Positions 1,131-10,883 of a stretch of 21,421 nucleotides of DNA are shown one piece after another (position 1 is the first letter of the stretch; every line of letters starts with the position of its first letter). The stretch is from a virus. The notes under the pieces are model-generated. The model searched no databases. It worked only from the letters and a program-made list of their open reading frames with translations, and was not told where the DNA came from. The DNA lies in the IMG/VR virus record IMGVR_UViG_3300043449_001982, positions 1 to 21,421 of that record; one strand, written 5' to 3'. Position numbers and translations under genes: made by a program.

Positions 1131-1637
1131 ATGGACCTTGCCGAACCGAAAAAACTGGCCGCTCAACTCCTCCGGGCAGGGAAACCGGCGGCTTTTGTCA
1201 AGAAGAGGGTGCTTTCACAATATCCCAAGATGACGGTGACAGACTGGTCCGAGGTTTTCTACTCGAAAGAGTGGACAGATGCTTCAACCGAGTATCTCGG
1301 CGCCCATTCGCTGGACTTCAAAAGTAGGGTCATGCGGGCCGGGACGAAGGCGCTTCCGACCCTTGAACGGTTGGCCACTGAAGAGGACATAGATCAGAAC
1401 ATCCAAAACAAAGCAGCGATGCACCTTACCACCTTGGCCGCGAAGCTCTGCGCGGACAGGGTGATCGCTGAGGCCGCCGTTGACCAGTTACCCTATGATG
1501 AACGGATAGCCCTTCTTCGGCGGGCCTGGTCACAGATGGCCGCTATGATCTGTTCAGAGGACGCGCTTGACGCCCTCCTTGTGCTCCGGGATCTGCACCC
1601 CGAGTTCGCCCAGCTTTACGAACCTGTCGGCGGATGA
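1131..1637 (+). CDS. putative terminase small subunit
   Basis: 168 aa, mostly alpha-helical. The assignment rests on position and size: it ends inside the terL start (ATGA overlap at 1634-1637) and has the length of terminase small subunits, which bind the packaging site on phage DNA and feed it to the large subunit. The N-terminal half (KKLAAQLLRAGKPAAFVKKR, then a YPKMTVTDWSEVF segment) could form a helix-turn-helix-like DNA-binding fold, but I cannot verify a motif. The C-terminal half is acidic and helical, as in oligomerisation regions of the family. ATG 1131 lacks a Shine-Dalgarno and sits 7 nt after a putative -10 box, so it may be translated as a leaderless message. A different packaging accessory protein is the main alternative. 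Confidence 0.55.
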   Translation: MDLAEPKKLAAQLLRAGKPAAFVKKRVLSQYPKMTVTDWSEVFYSKEWTDASTEYLGAHSLDFKSRVMRAGTKALPTLERLATEEDIDQNIQNKAAMHLTTLAAKLCADRVIAEAAVDQLPYDERIALLRRAWSQMAAMICSEDALDALLVLRDLHPEFAQLYEPVGG

Positions 1638-3097
1638 ACCCCACTCCATCCCTTCCTGCGCCTCTACCCCTGGCCAGCCTGTGGGCGCCGGAGTGTCGGG
1701 ACTGTTCACGACAGGCGGACAAGCCTTGGCGCGGGTGGCCTTTGCGCCGGACATCTGGGCTGGTCCACCGCTGCCCGAAGTGTGGGAATGTTGAACAAAG
1801 GGGTTCGCAGAGGGCGGTTGCGCAAATCTGGGCGGATGCTCACGCGGAGAAGGTCCGCGCCCGGGAGGTTGCACAGACTCACCTTCTGGTGAGTGGTGGA
1901 AACCGGGCGGGGAAGTCGGAGCTTGGCGCGGCCTGGCTACTGGCCCAAGCGATGGGGAGGAGTCACCCGTGGACGGTCGCATTCTGCAAAGCGAACAAAC
2001 TCGATCCGATGGCCTTCCCCGATGGGCCCGGGGTTGTGTGGGCACTTTCGCTGACCTGGTCAGACGCGATCAGGTATGTTCGGGGGAAGCTCGATCTGTA
2101 CTGTCCGGCCGGCGCAGAGTGGCATGGGCGGATGGCCCAGAACGAAGCCCGCCTATCTCTTCCTGGGGGAGGTCTGGTCATTTCCAAGTGCTGGAGTCAG
2201 GGCCGGAAGGGGATGCAGGGGGACAGTATCCGGGCCGCATGGGTGGACGAAGAGCCCAGGGACCGGGAAGCCTTCGATGAACTGATGATGCGCCTCGCCG
2301 ATCAAATCGGCGCCCTTTGTTTGACTATGACACCACTGATGGGGCTGACCTGGGTTTACCACTCATATGTGAAGAACCCGCCCCCGGGCTGGCTTTTCTT
2401 CGAGCTGTCCGGCTTGGACAATCCCCATGTCCCGCCGACCATCCTAAAACAGACGGCCGAGGCAGGCGCTGCTGCCTTTGTGGCTGCTCGCCTTTATGGC
2501 CGGTGGGGAGCCATCGAGGGCCTTGTCTGGCCGGAGTGGGATGAGTCCGTCCATGTGGTCGATGACATGATCTTGCCCCCCACGTGGAGGCGATATCGGG
2601 CCATCGACTTCGGGATGAGGGCCCCCTTCTGCTGCCTCTGGGGAGCTGTCGATCCTGATGGGGTGCTTTGGATTTACCGGGAGCACTACGAAGCCGGTCA
2701 ACTGGTCAGCTACCACGCGGACATGATCAAACACATGACCGGGACTGACCAGATTGAAGAGACGATCGCCGACCCTGAAGATAGGCAGTCTCGGATGTCG
2801 CTTGCCTTGGAGCATGACATCCAAAACGTTCCCGCGATCAAAGATTTCAGGGCCACCGTGGACAGTGTGGCCCGTCGACTGAAGCCGATGAAGAACGGAC
2901 TTCCGGGGATTCGGGTCTTGCGACAGTGCAAGAGGCTTCGGGACGAGATGGCCGGATACATCTGGGCCAAGGACAGAAACGAAGAACGCCGCGAACAAGT
3001 CGCGGCGGGCGTTTCGGATCATGCTGTCGACGCTCTGCGGTATCTGTCTCTGTACCTGGACAGAAACCAGGGCGGCGGGTTCGTTCTGGCCTTGTGA
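1634..3097 (+). CDS. terL: terminase large subunit (packaging ATPase and nuclease)
   Basis: 487 aa. The motor that pumps DNA into the prohead and cuts the concatemer. The ATPase domain shows Walker A GGNRAGKS (88-95), a Walker B-like AAWVDEEP (201-208) with the catalytic Glu, and a coupling motif TMTP (231-234). The RNase H-like nuclease domain follows: AIDFG (D325), an ADPE segment (D380) and SDHAVDALRY (D463), in the order expected for three metal-binding acids. An unusual N-terminal extension of about 80 residues carries CRDC (21-24) and CPKC (47-50), a zinc-ribbon arrangement C-x2-C-x22-C-x2-C. The start overlaps the terS stop as ATGA. The gene is followed at once by an inverted-repeat terminator rather than by the portal gene, so it closes its transcription unit. 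Confidence 0.93.
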   Translation: MNPTPSLPAPLPLASLWAPECRDCSRQADKPWRGWPLRRTSGLVHRCPKCGNVEQRGSQRAVAQIWADAHAEKVRAREVAQTHLLVSGGNRAGKSELGAAWLLAQAMGRSHPWTVAFCKANKLDPMAFPDGPGVVWALSLTWSDAIRYVRGKLDLYCPAGAEWHGRMAQNEARLSLPGGGLVISKCWSQGRKGMQGDSIRAAWVDEEPRDREAFDELMMRLADQIGALCLTMTPLMGLTWVYHSYVKNPPPGWLFFELSGLDNPHVPPTILKQTAEAGAAAFVAARLYGRWGAIEGLVWPEWDESVHVVDDMILPPTWRRYRAIDFGMRAPFCCLWGAVDPDGVLWIYREHYEAGQLVSYHADMIKHMTGTDQIEETIADPEDRQSRMSLALEHDIQNVPAIKDFRATVDSVARRLKPMKNGLPGIRVLRQCKRLRDEMAGYIWAKDRNEERREQVAAGVSDHAVDALRYLSLYLDRNQGGGFVLAL

Positions 3098-3104
3098 TGA
3101 CCTT

Positions 3105-3161
3105 CCACCAAAAGACGGACCCACCGCGAAACCGTGCAGCCGGCGGCCCGTCTTTTGGTGG
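3105..3161. terminator. bidirectional inverted-repeat terminator after terL
   Basis: A perfect 14-bp inverted repeat: CCACCAAAAGACGG at 3105-3118 and its complement CCGTCTTTTGGTGG at 3148-3161, with a 29-nt loop that is GC-rich and could add inner pairs. It lies 8 nt after the terL stop and 26 nt beyond the end of the converging leftward gene. The TTTT or AAAA runs inside the arms leave a short U-tract on either strand. This fits a two-way barrier between the terminase operon and the island. Confidence 0.6.
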
Positions 3162-3187
3162 CAGGACTTGGCCAGTCCTGCCAGACC

Positions 3188-3445
3188 CTAGAGCCGGGCC
3201 CCGGAGGGAGCCACGCGAGCCCAGCCCTGGGTTGCGAGGTAGGCCAGCGCGGCCCGGACGTTTTCCGGGGGACCCATCAGGGTGATCTTGCTTGGTGCAT
3301 CGGGTTCGAGGGCATACGCTTGGATATCGTGTGCGCGGATCGCGACCTTCACCGCCTCCCCAGGGGGGAGCTGTCCGCTGGCCTGGGTCTTCGGGGGGAC
3401 GGCGCAGGCGGCTTCGATGTCGTCGCGGATCACGGAGGGTGACAT
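3188..3445 (-). CDS. hypothetical protein, 85 aa, accessory island
   Basis: Starts at ATG 3445 with GGGGCAGG about 8 nt upstream. I do not recognise it. The sequence reads as a small alpha/beta domain: an N-terminal helix (IRDDIEAACAV), a Pro-rich linker, a beta pair (AVKVAIRAHDIQAYAL, KITLMG) and a C-terminal helix (PENVRAALAYLATQGWARV). There is no signal peptide or metal motif. It is the only leftward island gene without its own copy of the repeated promoter module, so it is probably transcribed from the module upstream of the 69-aa gene. It ends 26 nt before the bidirectional terminator. Confidence 0.65.
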   Translation of the reverse strand: MSPSVIRDDIEAACAVPPKTQASGQLPPGEAVKVAIRAHDIQAYALEPDAPSKITLMGPPENVRAALAYLATQGWARVAPSGARL

Positions 3446-3586
3446 TTGGTTTCCTGCCCCTGTGGAGATTGCGCAGACTCGGGGCCGGTCTGCACAGGTT
3501 GCGCCCGTCCGTGGGCCTGGGCCCCCATCCTTGCAGGGGGCTACGCCAGCTCTGGGCTGGTGCAGGCGGCGCCGCCGCCCTTCGGG
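3446..3586. other. 141-nt spacer between two leftward island genes
   Basis: No convincing gene. It contains a 12-bp palindrome GGCGGCGCCGCC (3565-3576) just past the stop of the 69-aa gene. Its core GCGGCGCCGC recurs at 5844-5853, past the stop of the rightward island gene. A 32-aa leftward ORF (3430-3528) is possible but is not supported by anything except an upstream purine run. Confidence 0.3.
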
Positions 3587-3796
3587 CTACTCCTCTTCGA
3601 GGATCTGGATAGACCCGGCGAGGATCCCTTCCTGGCCCCCCTTGCCCGCCTGGTCCAGCAGCTCGGCCCTGGCCTCGGCGAGGGTGAGCCCGGTCATGTC
3701 GAGCTCTCCCTCGCCATCTGCGGAGAGCCACCAGCCCGCCCAGCGGGCGTCGGTGGGGAGGATGTCGGAGACGAGGATGGTGGGGATGCGGGTCAT
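3587..3796 (-). CDS. hypothetical protein, 69 aa, accessory island
   Basis: The start is placed at ATG 3796 (MTRIPTILVS...), because AAAAGGAG lies 6 nt upstream and the bases before it belong to the repeated regulatory module shared with three other genes. The longer in-frame start at 3844 would translate that module. The protein is small and acidic: a short beta start (TRIPTILVSDILP), a tryptophan pair (ARWAGWWLSADGEG), a helix (TLAEARAELLDQAG) and an acidic tail (ILEEE). I recognise no family. The acidic charge and control by the shared module make a role in host takeover or counter-defence plausible, but this is only inference from context. Confidence 0.7.
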   Translation of the reverse strand: MTRIPTILVSDILPTDARWAGWWLSADGEGELDMTGLTLAEARAELLDQAGKGGQEGILAGSIQILEEE

Positions 3797-3891
3797 GGGA
3801 TCTCCTTTTGTCGGCGCGGTTTCGTTGCCGCCGATGTTTTTCAATTATCTCGCCTTCCGGAAGGCGCAAGCAAGATCCGGAAAAAAGATCA
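3797..3891 (-). repeat. regulatory module copy A (before the 69-aa gene)
   Basis: Reading leftward: the TGA stop of the upstream zinc-ribbon gene followed by a T-tract (TCTTTTTT), then CTTGCG, the palindrome CGCCTTCCGGAAGGCG (3851-3866), TAATTG, a stem-loop with 6-bp arms TCGGCG/CGCCGA (3811-3834), and AAAAGGAG 6 nt before the ATG. It is closest to copy C in the -10 region (TAATnGAAAAA) and in the ACAAAAGGAG after the stem. Confidence 0.9.
3842..3870 (-). promoter_or_regulatory. putative promoter with palindromic operator, copy A
   Basis: CTTGCG (3870-3865), a 17-nt spacer, and TAATTG (3847-3842). A 16-bp perfect palindrome centred on TTCCGGAA overlaps the -35 box and fills the spacer, so a bound dimer would block RNA polymerase. 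The T-tract upstream sits where an UP element would. Confidence 0.6.
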
Positions 3892-4329
3892 CGCCTTGCA
3901 GATTTGGTTCAGGAGCGCGCCCGCCTTGGTCTTTGTGAAGCGATGGCGGAGGCTGTCCGAGATCGACTCAACGCGCCAGGCGCCGGGCCGCCCAGTAAAC
4001 CAGAGGGTTCCACCGCAGATCTTCTCCCCTTCTTCGGAAAGCTCGGCCATCAGCTCGAACCTTCCGCCGCCGGGGCCGGCCTTGATTGTCAGGATGCAAT
4101 CGTGGCCCACGGCGTAGTTGCCTGCGGCCAGGAAGGCGCCGGCCTGCTCTGGGGACAGGCGCTTGTAGCGGGCGCCGTCAGGGCCGACACTGACCGTCAC
4201 GCGGTCCGAGGGGGGCGAAGCCTTGACCTGGCCGCTTCCGTTGCACCGGAAGCAACGCCCATGCTCGACGTGGCTGAACCCGTGAATCTTGGCGGCGCCA
4301 GCGCACTTAGGGCAGGTGATGGTGGTCAT
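3889..4329 (-). CDS. zinc-ribbon protein, paralogue 1
   Basis: 146 aa from ATG 4329, with AAGGAG 5 nt upstream. The N-terminus has two CxxC pairs, CPKC (6-9) and CFRC (26-29), with the DnaJ-like context CNGSG after the second pair, so it probably binds one zinc. Residues 36-60 (KASPPSDRVTVSVGPDGARY) are nearly the same as in the neighbouring 152-aa protein, residues 70-112 differ, and the end (LLNQICKA) is shared again. There is no catalytic signature. Small CxxC proteins of this type bind nucleic acid or protein partners, and I cannot say which applies here. The gene is preceded by module copy B, and its TGA stop is the first codon of module copy A. Function unknown; metal binding is likely. 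Confidence 0.8.
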   Translation of the reverse strand: MTTITCPKCAGAAKIHGFSHVEHGRCFRCNGSGQVKASPPSDRVTVSVGPDGARYKRLSPEQAGAFLAAGNYAVGHDCILTIKAGPGGGRFELMAELSEEGEKICGGTLWFTGRPGAWRVESISDSLRHRFTKTKAGALLNQICKA

Positions 4330-4424
4330 GGGATCTCCTTCATCGGCGGGGTTTCGTTGCCGCCGATGAAATACACCTATCGCGCCTTCCGGAAGGCGCA
4401 AGCGCGATTCGGAAAAAAAGATCA
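4330..4424 (-). repeat. regulatory module copy B (before zinc-ribbon paralogue 1)
   Basis: Same order as copy A: TGA of the upstream gene, a 7-T tract, CTTGCG, the palindrome GCGCCTTCCGGAAGGCGC (4382-4399, 18 bp, the longest of the four), TAGGTG, a stem-loop with perfect 9-bp arms CATCGGCGG/CCGCCGATG and a 10-nt loop (4341-4368), then AAGGAG directly after the stem and 5 nt before the ATG. It is closest to copy D. Confidence 0.9.
4374..4402 (-). promoter_or_regulatory. putative promoter with palindromic operator, copy B
   Basis: CTTGCG (4402-4397), a 17-nt spacer, and TAGGTG (4379-4374). The palindrome overlaps the -35 box and spacer. A start about 7 nt after the -10 falls on the first bases of the 9-bp stem, so the transcript would begin with the hairpin. 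Confidence 0.6.
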
Positions 4425-4880
4425 CGCGCGGCAGATTTGGTTTAGGGCGCCAAGGGCTTCCCTCTTCGAGATGTACTTCTCGATCGTGTGAGAGATATTG
4501 ACGATCTCCCAGCCTCCCGGGCGCCCGCGGAAGTCGACAGCGCTGCGGCCCATGTGGACCACCTCTCCGGGGATATCGTCATGGGCGTAAAGGTCGATTT
4601 CAAGGCGGTAGTCTCCGCCCGCCCTGACCCTGACGGTCAGGCCGGCCCCGCAGTAGTCCGCAGGCCAGCGCCCTGCGGCCAGGAAGGCGCCGGCCTGCTC
4701 CTGGGTGAGGCGCTTGTAGCGGGCCCCGTCGGGGCCAACACTGACCGCCATGCGGTCCGAGGGGGGCGCCGCCTTGACCTGGCCGCTTCCACCGCAGCGG
4801 AAGCAACGGCCATACTCAACCCGGAGGAACTGGTCCAGGGTCTTCTGTCCTTCGCACCGGGGGCAGGTGATGGTGGTCAT
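4422..4880 (-). CDS. zinc-ribbon protein, paralogue 2
   Basis: 152 aa from ATG 4880, with AAAAGGAG 6 nt upstream. CPRC (6-9) and CFRC (26-29) match the first paralogue in position and spacing, followed by CGGSG and a block VSVGPDGARYKRL identical to it. The middle (residues 71-118, with an LEIDLYAHDD segment) is unrelated at a glance, and the C-terminus (LNQICRA) converges again. This pattern of conserved ends and divergent core suggests duplication followed by changing partner specificity. The longer upstream in-frame start is rejected because it would translate the regulatory module. The gene is the first leftward gene from the divergent promoter region and faces the pentapeptide gene. Role unknown. 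Confidence 0.8.
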   Translation of the reverse strand: MTTITCPRCEGQKTLDQFLRVEYGRCFRCGGSGQVKAAPPSDRMAVSVGPDGARYKRLTQEQAGAFLAAGRWPADYCGAGLTVRVRAGGDYRLEIDLYAHDDIPGEVVHMGRSAVDFRGRPGGWEIVNISHTIEKYISKREALGALNQICRA

Positions 4881-4977
4881 TTGAGGCTCCTTTTGTCGGC
4901 GGGGTTTCGTTGCCGCCGATGTTTTTCTATTATCTCGCCTTCCGGAAGGCGCAAGCGCGATTCGGAAAAAAAGATCA
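4881..4977 (-). repeat. regulatory module copy C (before zinc-ribbon paralogue 2)
   Basis: Contains TGA plus a 7-T tract although no gene ends here now, then CTTGCG, the palindrome CGCCTTCCGGAAGGCG (4936-4951), TAATAG, a stem-loop with 7-bp arms TCGGCGG/CCGCCGA (4896-4919), and AAAAGGAG before ATG 4880. The orphan stop and T-tract look like the remnant of a gene that once lay upstream. Confidence 0.9.
4927..4955 (-). promoter_or_regulatory. putative promoter with palindromic operator, copy C
   Basis: CTTGCG (4955-4950), a 17-nt spacer, and TAATAG (4932-4927). It is divergent from copy D, with about 85 nt between the two -35 boxes. Confidence 0.6.
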
Positions 4978-4992
4978 CGGCCAGCTAAGGCA

Positions 4993-5014
4993 GGCCATGA
5001 TCGCGATCGTGGCC
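4993..5014. other. 22-bp imperfect palindrome between divergent promoters
   Basis: GGCCATGATCG / CGATCGTGGCC, symmetric apart from one base pair, lies midway between the leftward and rightward module copies C and D. It differs from the TTCCGGAA palindrome inside the promoters. A second regulator site shared by both promoters is the simplest reading. Confidence 0.4.
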
Positions 5015-5029
5015 GCACTTTTAAATATT

Positions 5030-5114
5030 TCGCACTTCCGCTTGCGCCTTCCGGAAGGCGAGATAGGTGTATTTCATCGGCGGCAACGAAACCCCGCCGA
5101 TGAAGGAGCACATC
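5030..5114 (+). repeat. regulatory module copy D (before the pentapeptide gene)
   Basis: This is the only rightward copy. An AT-rich block (TTTTAAATATTT, 5018-5029) precedes it in place of the T-tract. Then come CTTGCG, the palindrome CGCCTTCCGGAAGGCG (5045-5060), TAGGTG, a perfect 9-bp stem with a 10-nt loop (5075-5102), AAGGAG (5103-5108) and ATG 5115. From CTTGCG to the ATG it matches copy B almost base for base. Confidence 0.9.
5041..5069 (+). promoter_or_regulatory. putative promoter with palindromic operator, copy D
   Basis: CTTGCG (5041-5046), 17 nt, TAGGTG (5064-5069). The predicted start is near 5075-5077, exactly where the 9-bp stem begins, which gives a 5'-terminal hairpin mRNA. 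Confidence 0.6.
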
Positions 5115-5834
5115 ATGGCCCCCATTCCCGCCCACCTCGCTGTCCTCCCCTGGTATGCTCCCCATCTGGCATGGCTGGCCAGCCAGGGGTTCACCCCCTG
5201 GCACGATTCGGGTGAGGCTGCGCCGAAGAGGGCCGACCTGACGGGGGCCAGCCTGACCGGGGCCGACCTGACGGGGGCCAGCCTGACCGGGGCCGACCTG
5301 ACGGGGGCCAACCTGGAAGGGGCCGACCTGACGAGGGCCATCCTGGCAGGGGCCGACCTGAGGGGGGCCAACCTGCGGGTGACCCGCCTGACGAGGGCCA
5401 TCCTGGCAGGGGCCGACCTGAGGGGGGCCGGCCTGAGGGGGGCATACCTGACGTGGGCCGACCTGAGGGGGGCCGGCCTGGAGGGGGCCGACCTGAGGGG
5501 GGCATACCTGACGGGGGCATACCTGACGGGGGCCGGCCTGGAGGGGGCCGACCTGAGGGAGGCATACCTGGCGGGGGCCATCCTGACAGGGGCCAAAATC
5601 GCCGAGGGTACGATCCTATCTACCTCAGCGGGCGAGGCCGGCGGCTACCGCTGGTCCGCTCTCCGCCTGGAGGATGGACAGACCATCCTCCGCTACGGGT
5701 GCGAGCGCGCCACCCTGGAGGAGTGGCGGACCCGTGGGCCAGAGTACGGAGCCAGACACAATCACCCGCCCGAGCACTGGGATATCGGCCCAGCCGTGGC
5801 GATCGCTGCGGCCGAAGCTCTGGCGGCCGCCTGA
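5115..5834 (+). CDS. pentapeptide-repeat protein with distinct C-terminal domain
   Basis: 239 aa from ATG 5115 with AAGGAG 6 nt upstream. Residues 1-39 are a leader with aromatic residues (LPWYAPHLAWLASQGFTPWH). Residues 40-164 form about 25 consecutive A(D/N/S/Y/G/I)LxG pentapeptides, the pattern that folds as a right-handed quadrilateral beta-helix, interrupted once at NLRVTRLTRA (86-95). Residues 170-239 are a separate domain containing GYRW, a DG turn, YGCERATLEEW and an Ala-rich end. I have an impression of similar tails on phage and proteobacterial pentapeptide proteins but cannot verify it. Some pentapeptide proteins (Qnr, MfpA) mimic DNA and protect or inhibit gyrase, but most have unknown roles, so the target here is open. 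The gene has its own module promoter and an intrinsic terminator at its end, the classical moron layout. Confidence 0.9.
   Translation: MAPIPAHLAVLPWYAPHLAWLASQGFTPWHDSGEAAPKRADLTGASLTGADLTGASLTGADLTGANLEGADLTRAILAGADLRGANLRVTRLTRAILAGADLRGAGLRGAYLTWADLRGAGLEGADLRGAYLTGAYLTGAGLEGADLREAYLAGAILTGAKIAEGTILSTSAGEAGGYRWSALRLEDGQTILRYGCERATLEEWRTRGPEYGARHNHPPEHWDIGPAVAIAAAEALAAA
5232..5606 (+). repeat. 15/30/60-bp tandem DNA repeats encoding the pentapeptides
   Basis: The repeat is visible at the DNA level and not only in protein. A 30-bp unit beginning GGCCGACCTGACGGGGGCCA is repeated without change at the 5' end. A longer block (ACGAGGGCCATCCTGGCAGG and following bases) recurs 60 bp apart. Synonymous differences are few, which points to recent slippage or unequal recombination. 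Confidence 0.85.
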
Positions 5835-5842
5835 TCTTTTTT
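5808..5842 (+). terminator. intrinsic terminator overlapping the end of the pentapeptide gene
   Basis: A perfect 7-bp stem GCGGCCG (5808-5814) / CGGCCGC (5824-5830) with a 9-nt loop is followed by CTGATC and six T (5837-5842). The stem is still inside the coding region and the stop codon lies between stem and T-tract. The palindrome AGCGGCGCCGCT (5843-5854) follows immediately. Confidence 0.65.
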
Positions 5843-5944
5843 AGCGGCGCCGCTTGCGCGTGTCGCGGAGGGTGGAGTTCCTCGATTCACCACAAAAGGG
5901 GCTCCGCAGAGGCGGAGTACCAGGATCAAGTGAACAAACTCGCA

Positions 5945-6013: not shown

Positions 6014-8476
6014 ATGAGCACCGCCGCACCCTGGTACAGTCGGATCGTCTCCCCCATCGGGGCAGGCTTTGGATACCTGGCCAGAGCCTTCGGGTTCCGG
6101 GGGGAACAGACCCCAAGGATTGAGTCTGTCTCCTACGGGGCGGGCTGGGAAGCGTCCGCGCCGCAGTCGCCGTCATACGCGGTCGAGCAAAGCATGTCCG
6201 CCTATGCGGCCTTTCCCATGGTCCGGGCTTGCGCCTCGGCCATCGCGGAGGACCTGGCCGGGCTCCCCCTGAAGATCGTCAAAGGGAGCGGAGAGGAGGC
6301 GAAGACAGTCGAGATCCCAGAGCTGCGGGCCATCCTTGACAATCCTCTCAGCATCGACCCGACCGGGTCGGGCGTGCTGTGGCGGCAACAGTGGGCGATC
6401 GATCTTCTTCTCCCAGGCAACGCGTACGCACTGATCTTGCTCGGTGAACGGAGCCTGCCGGTCGGGCTTCTCCGTCTCCACCCTGGGCATGTCAACGTGG
6501 TCCCCAGTCCGTTCGGAACTCCCGCCGGGTATGTTTTCGGCGCCAACCAGAAGAAGTATGAACCCTCCGCGGTCCTCCATGCGAGGATGCCCAGCTGGGC
6601 AGATACCCCCGATGGGGTGATGGGGGAGGGGCTGATCAGGGTCCTGGACCGGACACTATCCGCAGAACTGGCCATGAGGGAGCGGACCAAACAGAACGCG
6701 GCAATTGGCGCCCCCCTGGTGATTATCTCCGCCGGGTCTGATCAACTGCGCCTCTCTCAAGCCCTGATGAGTGCGCTACAGTCTGCCTATATGCGGGCAG
6801 CGAAAGAGAGCCGGCCGTTGGTCATTGACCAGACCGTCAAGGTCGACTCACTGTCTCTCACCGCCCAGGAAATGCAGCTAACCGAACAGCAAGCCCGCCT
6901 CGACGTGGAGATCATGGCGGTCTTCGGCGTCCCCCCTTCGCGACTGTTCAGCAACAACGCGAACTATGCGACCGCTGCCGAACAGTCCCGCGGGTACTGG
7001 GAATCGCTCCGGAAGCGCGCCGCGATGATTGACGGTCAACTGACCAGGGTAGCCAGGGCCTTTGGTGATGATTTGACCATTCAACATGACTTCTCTTCTG
7101 TCGCTGTGCTCCAGGACAGTCGGACCGCCCAGATAAACCGTGCGGTCATCCTTGTGGAGAAGTTCGGGGCCGATCCTGCCTCAGCCCTGGCCTATGAAGG
7201 GCTGGCCGATGCGCCGATTAGACCTGGACAGACTGTGCCAGAAGATGACGAGACAACCGAAGAGATCGAGCCGGTGAAGGTAATCCGGGCCCTGGACGGA
7301 GAAGAACCAAGGCTTGAACAGTCCGACTATGCACGCCCCCCGCGCGCCTGGCTGGCGGACCTCTTCGAGAAGTACCCCAAAATCTGGAGGGCGGGCGGAA
7401 ATATCCGGGGGCCGGAAGCCTGGGCCCTGTGGGGCGAGTACGAAGGGGGTGCCCGGTCCGAGTCTGTTTTGGACTGGGTTAGAGAGCGGGAAGATTGGGC
7501 CGCCGGTCACTACCAGGACGGGGCCCAGCTGCGCGGGCGGACAAATGAGGCCACACTGTCCGAGATCGCTGGTGTGGTTGCGCAGTGCAAGTGGGGAGTG
7601 GTCGGCGCCCTGGGTTGGCCTTCGATGCGCGCCGCCTTGCGGACAGTCGCGGACAAGCTCGAAGCAGAGAGCGAGGCCCGCGCCGCATCCTGGGCAGAGT
7701 GGGAGATGAAGGTCAGGGCGCCGGCTGAACGGAAGCTCTTGGCTTCTGTCCTGGCCGCCCTTAGTGAACAGAGCGGGCGGGTCCTGGCCCGCCTTTCGGA
7801 TGTCGCGGACAGAGAGCGCCCCACCGTCGAGGCCGGACTGGTTGCGAAGGACTTTGTATCCGACCTTGTCGACGAGATCTTCCCCCCTGGGGTGGAAGAT
7901 CAAATGCTCCGGGAAGCGCTGGAAAGTGCGATCAGGAGTACGGTCGAGACTGGCTACAGGTTCGGGATTGACCAGATTCAGTCCGGGCTTTTGTTTGAAC
8001 CGTCCAGGCTTAGCGCTGCAACCCGTCAACAGGTGGCGCAGATGGTTACAGCGGTCAACTCAACGACCCGGAAGCAGATTCAAGACGCAGTCTTGACTGT
8101 CTATGAACAGGGCGGGACTGTCAACGACATCCAGAAGGCCATCCAGGACAGTGTAGACTTCGGGCCTTCCCGGTCGCTGCTGATCGCCAGAACGGAGACA
8201 TGCCGGGCAGTCTCTACCGGGACAGACTCTGCTATCAACCAGGGTCTTTTGTCAGGGGTCAACGTCCGGAAGCTCTGGCTGTCCGCCCGGGATTTGCATG
8301 TGCGGGATGAGCACATGCTCTTGGACGGTGATGAGGTGATGCCGGGTGAGACGTTTACAATCCCAGCGGGTCCGTTCGCAGGGAGAACCGCCCCGGCCCC
8401 TGGGGGCTTTGGTTCCCCTGCGCTTGACTGTAACTGCCGGTGCGGTCTTGTCCCGAGTGTTATAGAGGAATTGTAG
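6014..8476 (+). CDS. portal protein fused to MuF head-morphogenesis domain
   Basis: 820 aa. Residues about 55-400 are an HK97-like portal: helical clip and stem features, a YALILLG strand region (138-144), and the conserved end of the family (VEIMAVFGVPPSRLF, then NYATAAEQSRGYWESL). The portal forms the dodecameric DNA gate at one capsid vertex. Residues about 443-552 form an extra module (WRAGGNIRGPEAWALWGEYE ... REREDWAAGHYQDG ... QCKWGVVGALG). Residues about 700-815 match the MuF fold: RTETCR, KLWLSARDLHVRDEH, LDGDEV and a closing CNCRC. MuF proteins are minor capsid proteins, often ejected. Portal-MuF fusions are known but uncommon compared with separate adjacent genes. ATG 6014 follows a putative leaderless promoter. 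Confidence 0.9.
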   Translation: MSTAAPWYSRIVSPIGAGFGYLARAFGFRGEQTPRIESVSYGAGWEASAPQSPSYAVEQSMSAYAAFPMVRACASAIAEDLAGLPLKIVKGSGEEAKTVEIPELRAILDNPLSIDPTGSGVLWRQQWAIDLLLPGNAYALILLGERSLPVGLLRLHPGHVNVVPSPFGTPAGYVFGANQKKYEPSAVLHARMPSWADTPDGVMGEGLIRVLDRTLSAELAMRERTKQNAAIGAPLVIISAGSDQLRLSQALMSALQSAYMRAAKESRPLVIDQTVKVDSLSLTAQEMQLTEQQARLDVEIMAVFGVPPSRLFSNNANYATAAEQSRGYWESLRKRAAMIDGQLTRVARAFGDDLTIQHDFSSVAVLQDSRTAQINRAVILVEKFGADPASALAYEGLADAPIRPGQTVPEDDETTEEIEPVKVIRALDGEEPRLEQSDYARPPRAWLADLFEKYPKIWRAGGNIRGPEAWALWGEYEGGARSESVLDWVREREDWAAGHYQDGAQLRGRTNEATLSEIAGVVAQCKWGVVGALGWPSMRAALRTVADKLEAESEARAASWAEWEMKVRAPAERKLLASVLAALSEQSGRVLARLSDVADRERPTVEAGLVAKDFVSDLVDEIFPPGVEDQMLREALESAIRSTVETGYRFGIDQIQSGLLFEPSRLSAATRQQVAQMVTAVNSTTRKQIQDAVLTVYEQGGTVNDIQKAIQDSVDFGPSRSLLIARTETCRAVSTGTDSAINQGLLSGVNVRKLWLSARDLHVRDEHMLLDGDEVMPGETFTIPAGPFAGRTAPAPGGFGSPALDCNCRCGLVPSVIEEL

Positions 8477-8520: not shown

Positions 8521-9252
8521 ATGATCAAGCATCTGGCGATCACTGACTCCGAGGTCCTCCGGGCCGCCGGCTTCCATCCGCCCACGATGGACGCTGCCTG
8601 GTTTGTTATGTCAACGCCCGCACCGGACAGACACGACGACATCGTTGAACAGTCCTGGGACCTCAAAGAGTTCAATGACAACCCGATCGCTGTTGTCGAC
8701 CACTGGGCGAGCGCCAGCAACGTGGTCGGTTCATGGTCTGATGTGGAGGTCCGGGGGGGCAAGTTGACCGGTCGGCTTGTGTGGTCGAAGACAGAGGACG
8801 CCCAGGAGATTGCACAGAAGGTCGTCGAGGGCCATATCCGGGCGGTATCTGTCGGGTTCCGCCCCAGGAACGCCCTGGAGCGGAGGAGCCTTCCCGACAC
8901 AGACCCCCGCAAAGGCTTACGCGGGTCTGTGTTCCAGGGCCCCAACCTTCTGTTGGAGTGCTCTGTGGTCGGCATCCCTGCCAACACGGGCGCTCTGGTC
9001 ATCCGCAACAGTGGGGTGGACCTGGGTGGGCTTGTTGATGCGGTATCAGCCCGGGTGCTGACCGGGGTTGAACAGAAGTTGACCGAGCTGGCGTCTTCCT
9101 TCTTTACCCAGCGGATTGAACAGTCCATCCGTGACGAGTCCTCTTTCCCCGGCTCTCCGCCTGTGGATGAGCACCGGGCCGGCGACCTTGAAGACTTCTT
9201 CGCAGAGAAGAACAGTCTCGACGCGTTCTTTGCGTCGAAGGAGAACAAATGA
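8521..9252 (+). CDS. prohead serine protease (HK97 type, S78)
   Basis: 243 aa. Processes capsid and scaffold during prohead maturation. Family features are VMSTPAPDRHDD (29-40), the strand PIAVVDH with the probable catalytic His61, the GKLTGRLVW strand, HIRAVSVGF with the nucleophile Ser110, and LLECSVVGIPANTGAL (144-159) with the acidic residue Glu146. The C-terminal 80 residues are helical and charged (DLEDFFAEKNSLDAFFASKENK) and could act as a scaffold or be removed by self-cleavage. It overlaps the capsid gene by 4 bp (ATGA), so the two are translationally coupled. A 44-nt gap with a promoter-like site separates it from the portal gene. Confidence 0.9.
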   Translation: MIKHLAITDSEVLRAAGFHPPTMDAAWFVMSTPAPDRHDDIVEQSWDLKEFNDNPIAVVDHWASASNVVGSWSDVEVRGGKLTGRLVWSKTEDAQEIAQKVVEGHIRAVSVGFRPRNALERRSLPDTDPRKGLRGSVFQGPNLLLECSVVGIPANTGALVIRNSGVDLGGLVDAVSARVLTGVEQKLTELASSFFTQRIEQSIRDESSFPGSPPVDEHRAGDLEDFFAEKNSLDAFFASKENK

Positions 9253-10883
9253 GCGGTATCGCAATTGACGAGATCCGGAAGGCGCCGACTTCGGTAGCCG
9301 AACTGGGCGCCTGGGCCGCCAAGGTCGCGGACGCCATTGAGTCTGGCGTGAAGACCAAGGAACTGAAGGACCGCGCAACCGACGAGGCGATCGCGATTCA
9401 CAAGCAGGTCCTTGCTTCTGAGGAGGGCAAGCGCGTTCAGACCCGGACCCGGGCGGGCGACCCGACCGACCTGGGACTGTACATCAACAATGATGGTACT
9501 GTCCGGTTCTACGACGAGACGGTTGAATACAGGGGAACCAAGGTTCACCTTCCCGGCTTGCTCACTGACCAGAAGACCTGTGGAGAGTGGCAAGAGCGGC
9601 TTCAGGACGCAACCCAGGCCCGCACCTTCCACCGTCTGGCCATGGGCTCCGGCCCGACTCTGGCCAAGTACGGAGGGATCAAGACCCGGGAGCGCCTGGA
9701 CGGTGAGTTCGTCCGCCTCTGTTTCCAGGCGCCGGCCTCGATCCGCGCCGCCCTGGATCTCACCCTGGACCAGCGCGCCAACGCTGCGAAGAAGAGTGAC
9801 CAGATCGGCGATTCGATGTCCAAGCACTTCAAGTCGCAAGGGTTCGGCGAAGAACGCGCATCCTTCGACTTCGAGGCGAAGTCTTTCGCCGATGTGTCCG
9901 GATACGGTGGCGAGTGGATTCCGGACAACTACAGCGGGGACCTGATCAGGCCCGCGACCATGCCTGATGTGGTCGAGAGTCTGTTTCCGGTCGAGAACAT
10001 CACGGGCCCCGCAACCGTCATCTTCACCCTGACCGGTCAGGCTCGTTGCTACCTCCTGAACCCGCCCAACCAGTCCGATCAACTGGCCAAGGTTCCGGCC
10101 ACCAATATCACCACCTCCTCCCAGTCGATCGCGCCGGTTGAACTGGCCTCTCTGTTCAATATGCGGATTACCGCCATCGAGGACGGCGAGGTGGATATTC
10201 AGCGGTTCATGGCGGAGCACCTGCCTGCCACCCATCGGGCCGCCGTGGGCGACATGATCGTGAACGGTGACAGCACCGCCACCCATCAGGACGCTATCGC
10301 CTCCTGGAACATTGACGGTCGCTGGGGCGCTTCCGGCCTGGGCGGTTCGAACGATCACCGCCGCGGCTGGATTGGGCTTCGGGCCCTGGCCCAGGACAAT
10401 TCATCGACCCATACGGTCGACATGGGCAGTATGCAGACTGTCTCCGACATCGCTGCACAACTGTTCTCCCGCCTGGGCAAGTTCGCCAGCATGGACGGTA
10501 CGGTTCTGATCTGCGGCCTTGACCTCTTCTGGAAGAAGATCGCCACTGATACCAATGTCCTGACCGTCGACAAGTACGGGCAGGGCGCCACCATCCTGCG
10601 GGGCGAAGTGGCCGCCCTCTTCGGGAAGCCGCTGGTTGTCTCCCCATGGATGTCGGCCGACCTGGCTTCTTCTGGTCTGTTCACGGGCTCGGGGGCCAAG
10701 GCTGGGCTCCTGGCCGCCAACACCAAGTCCTTCCGGGTCTACCGGCGCCGGGCGCCGACCCTGGAGATTGTCCGGGACTCGACTACCCGCACCGTCTCGA
10801 TGGTGACCACTGAGCGACTGTTCTTCGGCCGCAACGCGCTCTCTTCTGAGTGCCCCGTTGTGTACGGCTACAACTACCTCTGA
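9249..10883 (+). CDS. major capsid protein with N-terminal scaffold-like region
   Basis: 544 aa, with AAGGAG 6 nt before ATG 9249. Residues about 1-210 are charged and mostly helical, like the delta or scaffold domain of HK97-type capsids that the adjacent protease removes. Residues about 215-544 read as the HK97 fold: WIPDNYSGDLIRPATMPDVV starts the N-arm region, EHLPATHRAAVGDMIVNGDS resembles the spine-helix region, GEVAALFGKPLVVSPWM the P-domain, and a strand-rich end runs to YGYNYL. Several hundred copies build the shell. It lies between the protease and a small decoration-like protein, which is the expected place. The cleavage site cannot be fixed from sequence alone. Confidence 0.92.
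   Translation: MSGIAIDEIRKAPTSVAELGAWAAKVADAIESGVKTKELKDRATDEAIAIHKQVLASEEGKRVQTRTRAGDPTDLGLYINNDGTVRFYDETVEYRGTKVHLPGLLTDQKTCGEWQERLQDATQARTFHRLAMGSGPTLAKYGGIKTRERLDGEFVRLCFQAPASIRAALDLTLDQRANAAKKSDQIGDSMSKHFKSQGFGEERASFDFEAKSFADVSGYGGEWIPDNYSGDLIRPATMPDVVESLFPVENITGPATVIFTLTGQARCYLLNPPNQSDQLAKVPATNITTSSQSIAPVELASLFNMRITAIEDGEVDIQRFMAEHLPATHRAAVGDMIVNGDSTATHQDAIASWNIDGRWGASGLGGSNDHRRGWIGLRALAQDNSSTHTVDMGSMQTVSDIAAQLFSRLGKFASMDGTVLICGLDLFWKKIATDTNVLTVDKYGQGATILRGEVAALFGKPLVVSPWMSADLASSGLFTGSGAKAGLLAANTKSFRVYRRRAPTLEIVRDSTTRTVSMVTTERLFFGRNALSSECPVVYGYNYL

Follow-up and report, generated by a model that had tools for sequence, protein, structure and literature searches.

A four-copy gene-start module in an accessory-gene island of a divergent tailed phage

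Related elements and the phage record

Cluster K mycobacteriophages carry a 13-nt element, SAS, that includes AGGAG and adjoins start codons; about half of its copies are preceded by ESAS, which consists of inverted repeats (PMC3203893). Carriers of both elements in Cluster K include TM4, Anaya and Adephagia (PMC3203893, PMC11373665). Adephagia has seven ESAS copies of 46-47 bp with an inverted repeat and SigA-like -35 and -10 hexamers that stand 17-18 bp from each other, and its authors regard repression via a regulator binding the ESAS repeat as plausible (PMC11373665). In phage Anaya, read directly, ESAS takes the form TGTTGACATGCATACAG ... CTGTATGCATATCAACA, with SAS following 5-7 nt on in most clear copies.

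The modules described below also recall the stoperators of mycobacteriophage L5 and the conserved inverted repeats of Streptomyces phage phiC31, in which a short operator is repeated for coordinated control. Both have in common with our modules one short repeated site, but theirs comes without a leader hairpin and SD. Stoperators have been set against SAS (PMC3203893).

The window analysed here is the whole of IMG/VR record IMGVR_UViG_3300043449_001982, which comprises 21,421 bases and is probably part of a larger genome. Its gene content is that of a tailed phage, with a head-tail adaptor, tail proteins and a tape measure encoded in addition to the following genes:

1634-3097: terminase large subunit (terL)
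6014-8476: portal/Mu-F fusion
8521-9252: protease-like protein
9249-10883: major head protein

Megablast of the window against phage records gave zero DNA matches, the capsid protein search returned 0 matches, the portal had no match in IMG/VR, and, for the terminase, the best hits among known phages reach only about 25% identity. The phage is a divergent tailed phage and, judged by sequence, lies outside Cluster K and related genomes.

An accessory-gene island of 2.9 kb sits between terminase and portal. Using a terminase profile, we kept 80 relatives from IMG/VR and none from genome_contigs; about half of the 80 are 31-39% identical across most of the protein. Most of the IMG/VR relatives examined have a long co-directional ORF close behind the terminase and no island, four (L041, L052, L061 and L064) have other accessory ORFs at this joint, and in three compared phages the portal follows the terminase directly or nearly so. 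That relatives mostly lack the island while a few have other ORFs fits a moron or accessory-gene site, and the island is inserted, as a moron would be, between genes that are adjacent in relatives. Like phage morons, its genes lie between structural genes, are partly antisense and carry putative start signals of their own; the left boundary (3108-3165) has a candidate terminator. Morons usually carry individual promoters; unlike them, four of the genes here have one repeated start cassette in common. A PADLOC scan of the window gave no defence match. Two inverted-repeat features flank the module-driven genes:

3108-3165, unstranded: long inverted repeat, CCAAAAGACGG...CCGTCTTTTGG, in the gap that separates terL from the island
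3562-3575 and 5844-5857: short inverted repeats containing GCGGCGCCGC, directly beyond the outermost module-driven gene on either side of the island

With a second hairpin, the long repeat extends over 3108-3183 and folds on both strands; an 88-nt region here has z-scores of -4.6 and -4.9, one per strand. In this folding model, 3108-3183 is a candidate bidirectional terminator parting the late operon from the island. The GCGGCGCCGC repeats may be due to chance in GC-rich DNA.

Module layout and conservation

The first-pass annotation of this DNA had described four modules of the same order at gene starts, and these are borne out: each, about 90 nt long, stands directly 5' of an ATG, three leftward and one rightward. 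The island features are:

3188-3445, minus strand: 85-aa ORF without a module, in the same island
3587-3796, minus strand: M1 gene, 69 aa, matching no family
3797-3887, minus strand: module M1, leader subtype A, palindrome at 3851-3866, before the 69-aa gene
3889-4329, minus strand: M2 gene, 146 aa, zinc-ribbon-like, N-terminus CxxCxG...CxxCxGxG
4330-4420, minus strand: module M2, leader subtype B, palindrome at 4383-4398, before the 146-aa gene
4422-4880, minus strand: M3 gene, 152 aa, zinc-ribbon-like N-terminus
4881-4973, minus strand: module M3, leader subtype A, palindrome at 4936-4951, before the 152-aa gene
4993-5014, unstranded: near-perfect 22-bp palindrome GGCCATGATCGCGATCGTGGCC, midway between the divergent M3 and M4
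5023-5114, plus strand: module M4, leader subtype B, palindrome at 5045-5060, before the pentapeptide-repeat gene and diverging from M3
5115-5834, plus strand: M4 gene, 239-aa pentapeptide-repeat protein (PF00805, E 5.4e-47)
5832-5842, plus strand: gene-end motif TGATCTTTTTT at the end of the M4 gene
3881-3891, 4414-4424 and 4967-4977, all minus strand: further copies of TGATCTTTTTT

From 5' to 3', the first half of a module consists of an AT-rich block, GCTTGCGCCTTCCGGAAGGCG, A or C, GATA and a 9-nt linker, and the second half of CATCGGCGGCAACGAAACC, C or G, CGCCGA, a short linker, AAGGAG, 5-6 nt and the ATG. M1 thus reads as a T-run, CTTGCG, the palindrome, GATA, the hairpin and AAGGAG. GCTTGCGCCTTCCGGAAGGCG and CATCGGCGGCAACGAAACC form two long invariant blocks, and the GATA between them is invariant as well. 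Counted from the palindrome start, GATA lies at 17 nt and the leader block at 30 nt in 4/4 modules, with AAGGAG at 58-59 nt. The palindrome is perfect, uninterrupted and 16 bp long in all four; it had been placed within a 17-nt spacer, but the two bases with which it begins also form the end of CTTGCG. The sequence of the GGCCATGATCGCGATCGTGGCC palindrome is unrelated to it. Leader subtypes A (M1, M3) and B (M2, M4) differ in the 9-nt linker and in stem length. Identity is 68/70 between M1 and M3 and 69/70 between M2 and M4, against 59-60/70 across subtypes.

An AT-rich block does open all four modules, as had been proposed, but it is not one element: in M1-M3 it is the motif TGATCTTTTTT, and the block upstream of M4, also AT-rich, has little sequence match to the others. 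TGATCTTTTTT occurs 4 times in the window against 0.14 expected, and its TGA is the stop codon at three gene ends, including those of the genes upstream of two of M1-M3. Upstream of M3 no recognised gene ends at the motif; because TGATCTTTTTT stands there without a gene, its presence suggests that a gene once lay upstream of M3 and is now lost. A role for TGATCTTTTTT as a terminator was considered and dropped, the terminator scan having made no call.

The module sequence CGCCTTCCGGAAGGCG occurs exactly 4 times in the window, and there are 6 hits against 0.40 expected when as many as 3 mismatches are allowed; the block TCGGCGGCAACGAAACC has 4 exact copies against 0.13 expected. There are 20-mers that occur four times in the window; 100 Markov sequences of equal size contained no 20-mer more than once. 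A chance origin of the modules is excluded. Invariant columns (64/90) are clustered in blocks, one run having 21 nt and another 19 nt; permutation gave P = 0.0077 for the stretch GCTTG to AAGGAG and 5e-5 over 90 columns.

The modules precede three unrelated gene types. The M2 and M3 genes are paralogs (53% amino acid identity), the M1 and M3 genes have no similarity, and the M4 gene encodes a pentapeptide-repeat protein, in keeping with the earlier view that conservation before partly unrelated genes is regulatory. The M2 and M3 modules are identical at 59/70 positions (84%), against 64% nucleotide identity and 27/49 identical fourfold sites for their genes. That the modules are better conserved than the silent sites of the genes implies maintenance by selection or gene conversion. 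Within the fragment, copies are confined to the island, in both orientations, and the search for further ones found none away from gene starts. We take the module to be probably functional and in all likelihood regulatory on these sequence patterns. The M2 and M3 proteins show weak similarity to DnaJ, anti-TRAP and TIGR02642, all under curated cut-offs, and had no relatives in IMG/VR.

An exact search of IMG/VR and genome_contigs found no module outside the record, and DNA searches of phage and plasmid collections found none either; the phage DNA matches listed were pentapeptide-repeat genes. The palindrome by itself occurs in 15 IMG/VR contigs, on inspection never in a module-like context. 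A repeated-palindrome scan and a module sequence model, applied to 958 kb, recovered the window's copies only, and the next hits of the model were bare-palindrome contigs with E-values of 0.015 and worse. As no related genome in these searches carries the module, the terminase relatives included, the evidence of conservation comes from four paralogous copies and is open to homogenisation by gene conversion.

Putative promoter and leader signals

The modules had been read as containing a promoter, with CTTGCG and a TA-starting hexamer in their order; our analysis did not bear these out as the -35 and -10 of a sigma-70 promoter. The hexamers TAATTG, TAGGTG, TAATAG and TAGGTG (M1-M4) are poor -10 elements, with the worst sigma-70 matches in M2 and M4 (TAGGTG), and a simple sigma-70 scan called 0/4 modules. 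Scored with a weight matrix that approximates E. coli promoters from general knowledge, may not be that of the host and makes this a rough test, the proposed -35 positions rank from about 550th to about 10,200th of 42,776, with the best spacer allowed. Only in M1 is there a good match: TTGCTT-18-GATAAT, which ranks 15th and lies three bases 5' of the site proposed. The AT-rich block of M4 scores better than its proposed site (rank 49 of 42,776). The poor sigma-70 match implies an atypical or activator-dependent promoter, a phage polymerase or sigma factor, or a start elsewhere. Should the proposed -10 be correct, the transcript would begin with the opening bases of the leader hairpin, an arrangement that is coherent but unproven.

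Uniform message stability had been suggested in the first-pass annotation, but the hairpins are predicted to be unequally stable, ranging from -9.7 to -18.8 kcal/mol. Compared with shuffled sequences, those of M2 (z -3.7) and M4 (z -4.2) are the stronger, and those of M1 (z -0.9) and M3 (z -1.9) are not clearly above the shuffles. The stem has 11-12 pairs in subtype B, reaching the first bases of the SD, and 6-7 pairs in subtype A. In consensus folding both a palindrome hairpin and the leader hairpin form. Covariation is absent, every hairpin pair being invariant and one being broken in one copy, which leaves the RNA structure without evolutionary proof. Rfam gave no match up to a gathering score; rox1 was rejected, at 30 bits against a gathering score of 58 and spanning only the inverted palindrome copies. 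The first-pass reading of the palindrome as suited to a dimeric DNA-binding protein, followed by a leader hairpin and an SD, is supported by the sequence.

That annotation also knew of no named system with such a build, yet the Cluster K ESAS/SAS is a close analogue (PMC3203893, PMC11373665). Both are multi-copy composite elements just 5' of the start codons of unrelated genes, with an inverted repeat upstream of a conserved ribosome-binding element, and by this analogy our modules may function like ESAS/SAS. However, SAS is missing from our modules: the 13-mer GGGATAGGAGCCC, sought with up to 2 mismatches 3-9 nt before starts, is absent at all four, and 3 mismatches still gave no module match, with 6 scattered hits against 11.6 expected. 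The absence of SAS places the window element outside Cluster K ESAS/SAS. The ESAS repeat is imperfect, with 17-bp arms 11-15 nt apart in the clear Anaya copies, whereas our palindrome is perfect and unsplit. ESAS has a clear TTGACA; our modules have none and no recognisable shared sigma-70 hexamers, and by the SigA-like spacing of 17-18 bp, CTTGCG-17-TAATTG/TAGGTG/TAATAG scores poorly. Our modules add a leader hairpin before the SD and lie in an island between terL and portal, whereas Cluster K elements stand at non-structural genes.

Possible origins and meaning of the module

The best explanation, to which we give a probability of roughly 0.5, is a duplicated promoter-operator-leader cassette that co-regulates moron-like genes via a dimeric regulator. 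It accounts for four copies at ATGs, in both orientations and before three unrelated gene types, for the constant distances between palindrome, GATA and hairpin and the clustering of invariant columns, and it has a counterpart in the comparable layout at gene starts of other phages (PMC11373665). A moron-like set of accessory genes would have been inserted between terminase and portal, each starting with one copy of the ~90-bp cassette. The 16-bp palindrome, overlapping the promoter core, would be the operator of a homodimeric regulator encoded outside this fragment (no regulator gene is visible within the 21 kb), and this one regulator would switch all four genes together, more likely by repression than by activation. 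The leader hairpin would begin at about the transcript start, ahead of a strong SD, and would give all four messages one structured 5' end. The cassette may have spread by duplication within the island, M2 and M3 with their gene and M4 inverted. Counting against this explanation are the missing sigma-70-like hexamer pair common to all modules, the regulator gene not seen in the fragment, the hairpins that show no covariation and in M1 and M3 do not clearly exceed shuffles, and the failure to find the module in relatives.

The invariant block might instead be a promoter for a phage-specific polymerase or sigma factor, with the palindrome inside the recognition site and no separate operator. A 21-nt invariant block without a good shared sigma-70 match would suit such an enzyme, and the single-stranded palindrome could fold into a stem of 6 bp that closes a 4-nt loop, for which the hairpin promoters of the N4 virion RNA polymerase set a precedent. 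The N4 loops have 3 nt, however, the downstream structural genes are without copies, which is unusual for the phage-polymerase class, and the scanned proteins of the window, itself a fragment, include no RNA polymerase or sigma factor; we consider this improbable. Slightly better placed, though still unlikely, is a two-hairpin RNA leader acting on message stability or translation, with transcription starting further upstream, by read-through from co-directional genes or, for M4, from the AT-rich block. M1-M3 point the same way at short intervals, consensus folding yields both hairpins, and the M4 block outranks the proposed site; but the would-be loop CCGG is invariant along with its flanks, as in a DNA site, covariation is absent, and in modelled longer transcripts the minimum-energy fold contains the palindrome hairpin in M2 only and not in M1, M3 or M4.

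The modules could also be a recombination or duplication repeat, their similarity reflecting recent copying of a cassette without regulation. TGATCTTTTTT ties gene ends to the next module, the M2 and M3 genes are paralogous, and subtypes and flanks combine as a mosaic, all of which copying would explain. Against it, the M2 and M3 genes are far more diverged than their modules, variable linkers interrupt the constrained blocks, no recombinase was recognised in the fragment and no copy stands off a gene start, so that we rate it as improbable as the phage polymerase.

The proposed co-regulated cassette bears on a poorly known process, the common control of newly gained phage accessory genes; for Cluster K the role of ESAS/SAS is still described as unclear. 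The design principle is already known from Cluster K, and the window variant differs in sequence, palindrome, hairpin and position. As a small four-gene case, it makes operator, promoter and leader separately testable. A second, unrelated phage with a composite gene-start cassette suggests convergent design. It may also be, though we think it less likely than not, that the module is an independently evolved Cluster-K-like regulon element in an unrelated phage lineage, with a non-sigma-70 core, a palindromic operator and a 5'-terminal hairpin, that spreads as a cassette. If so, it would be a plug-in expression unit for newly acquired accessory genes.
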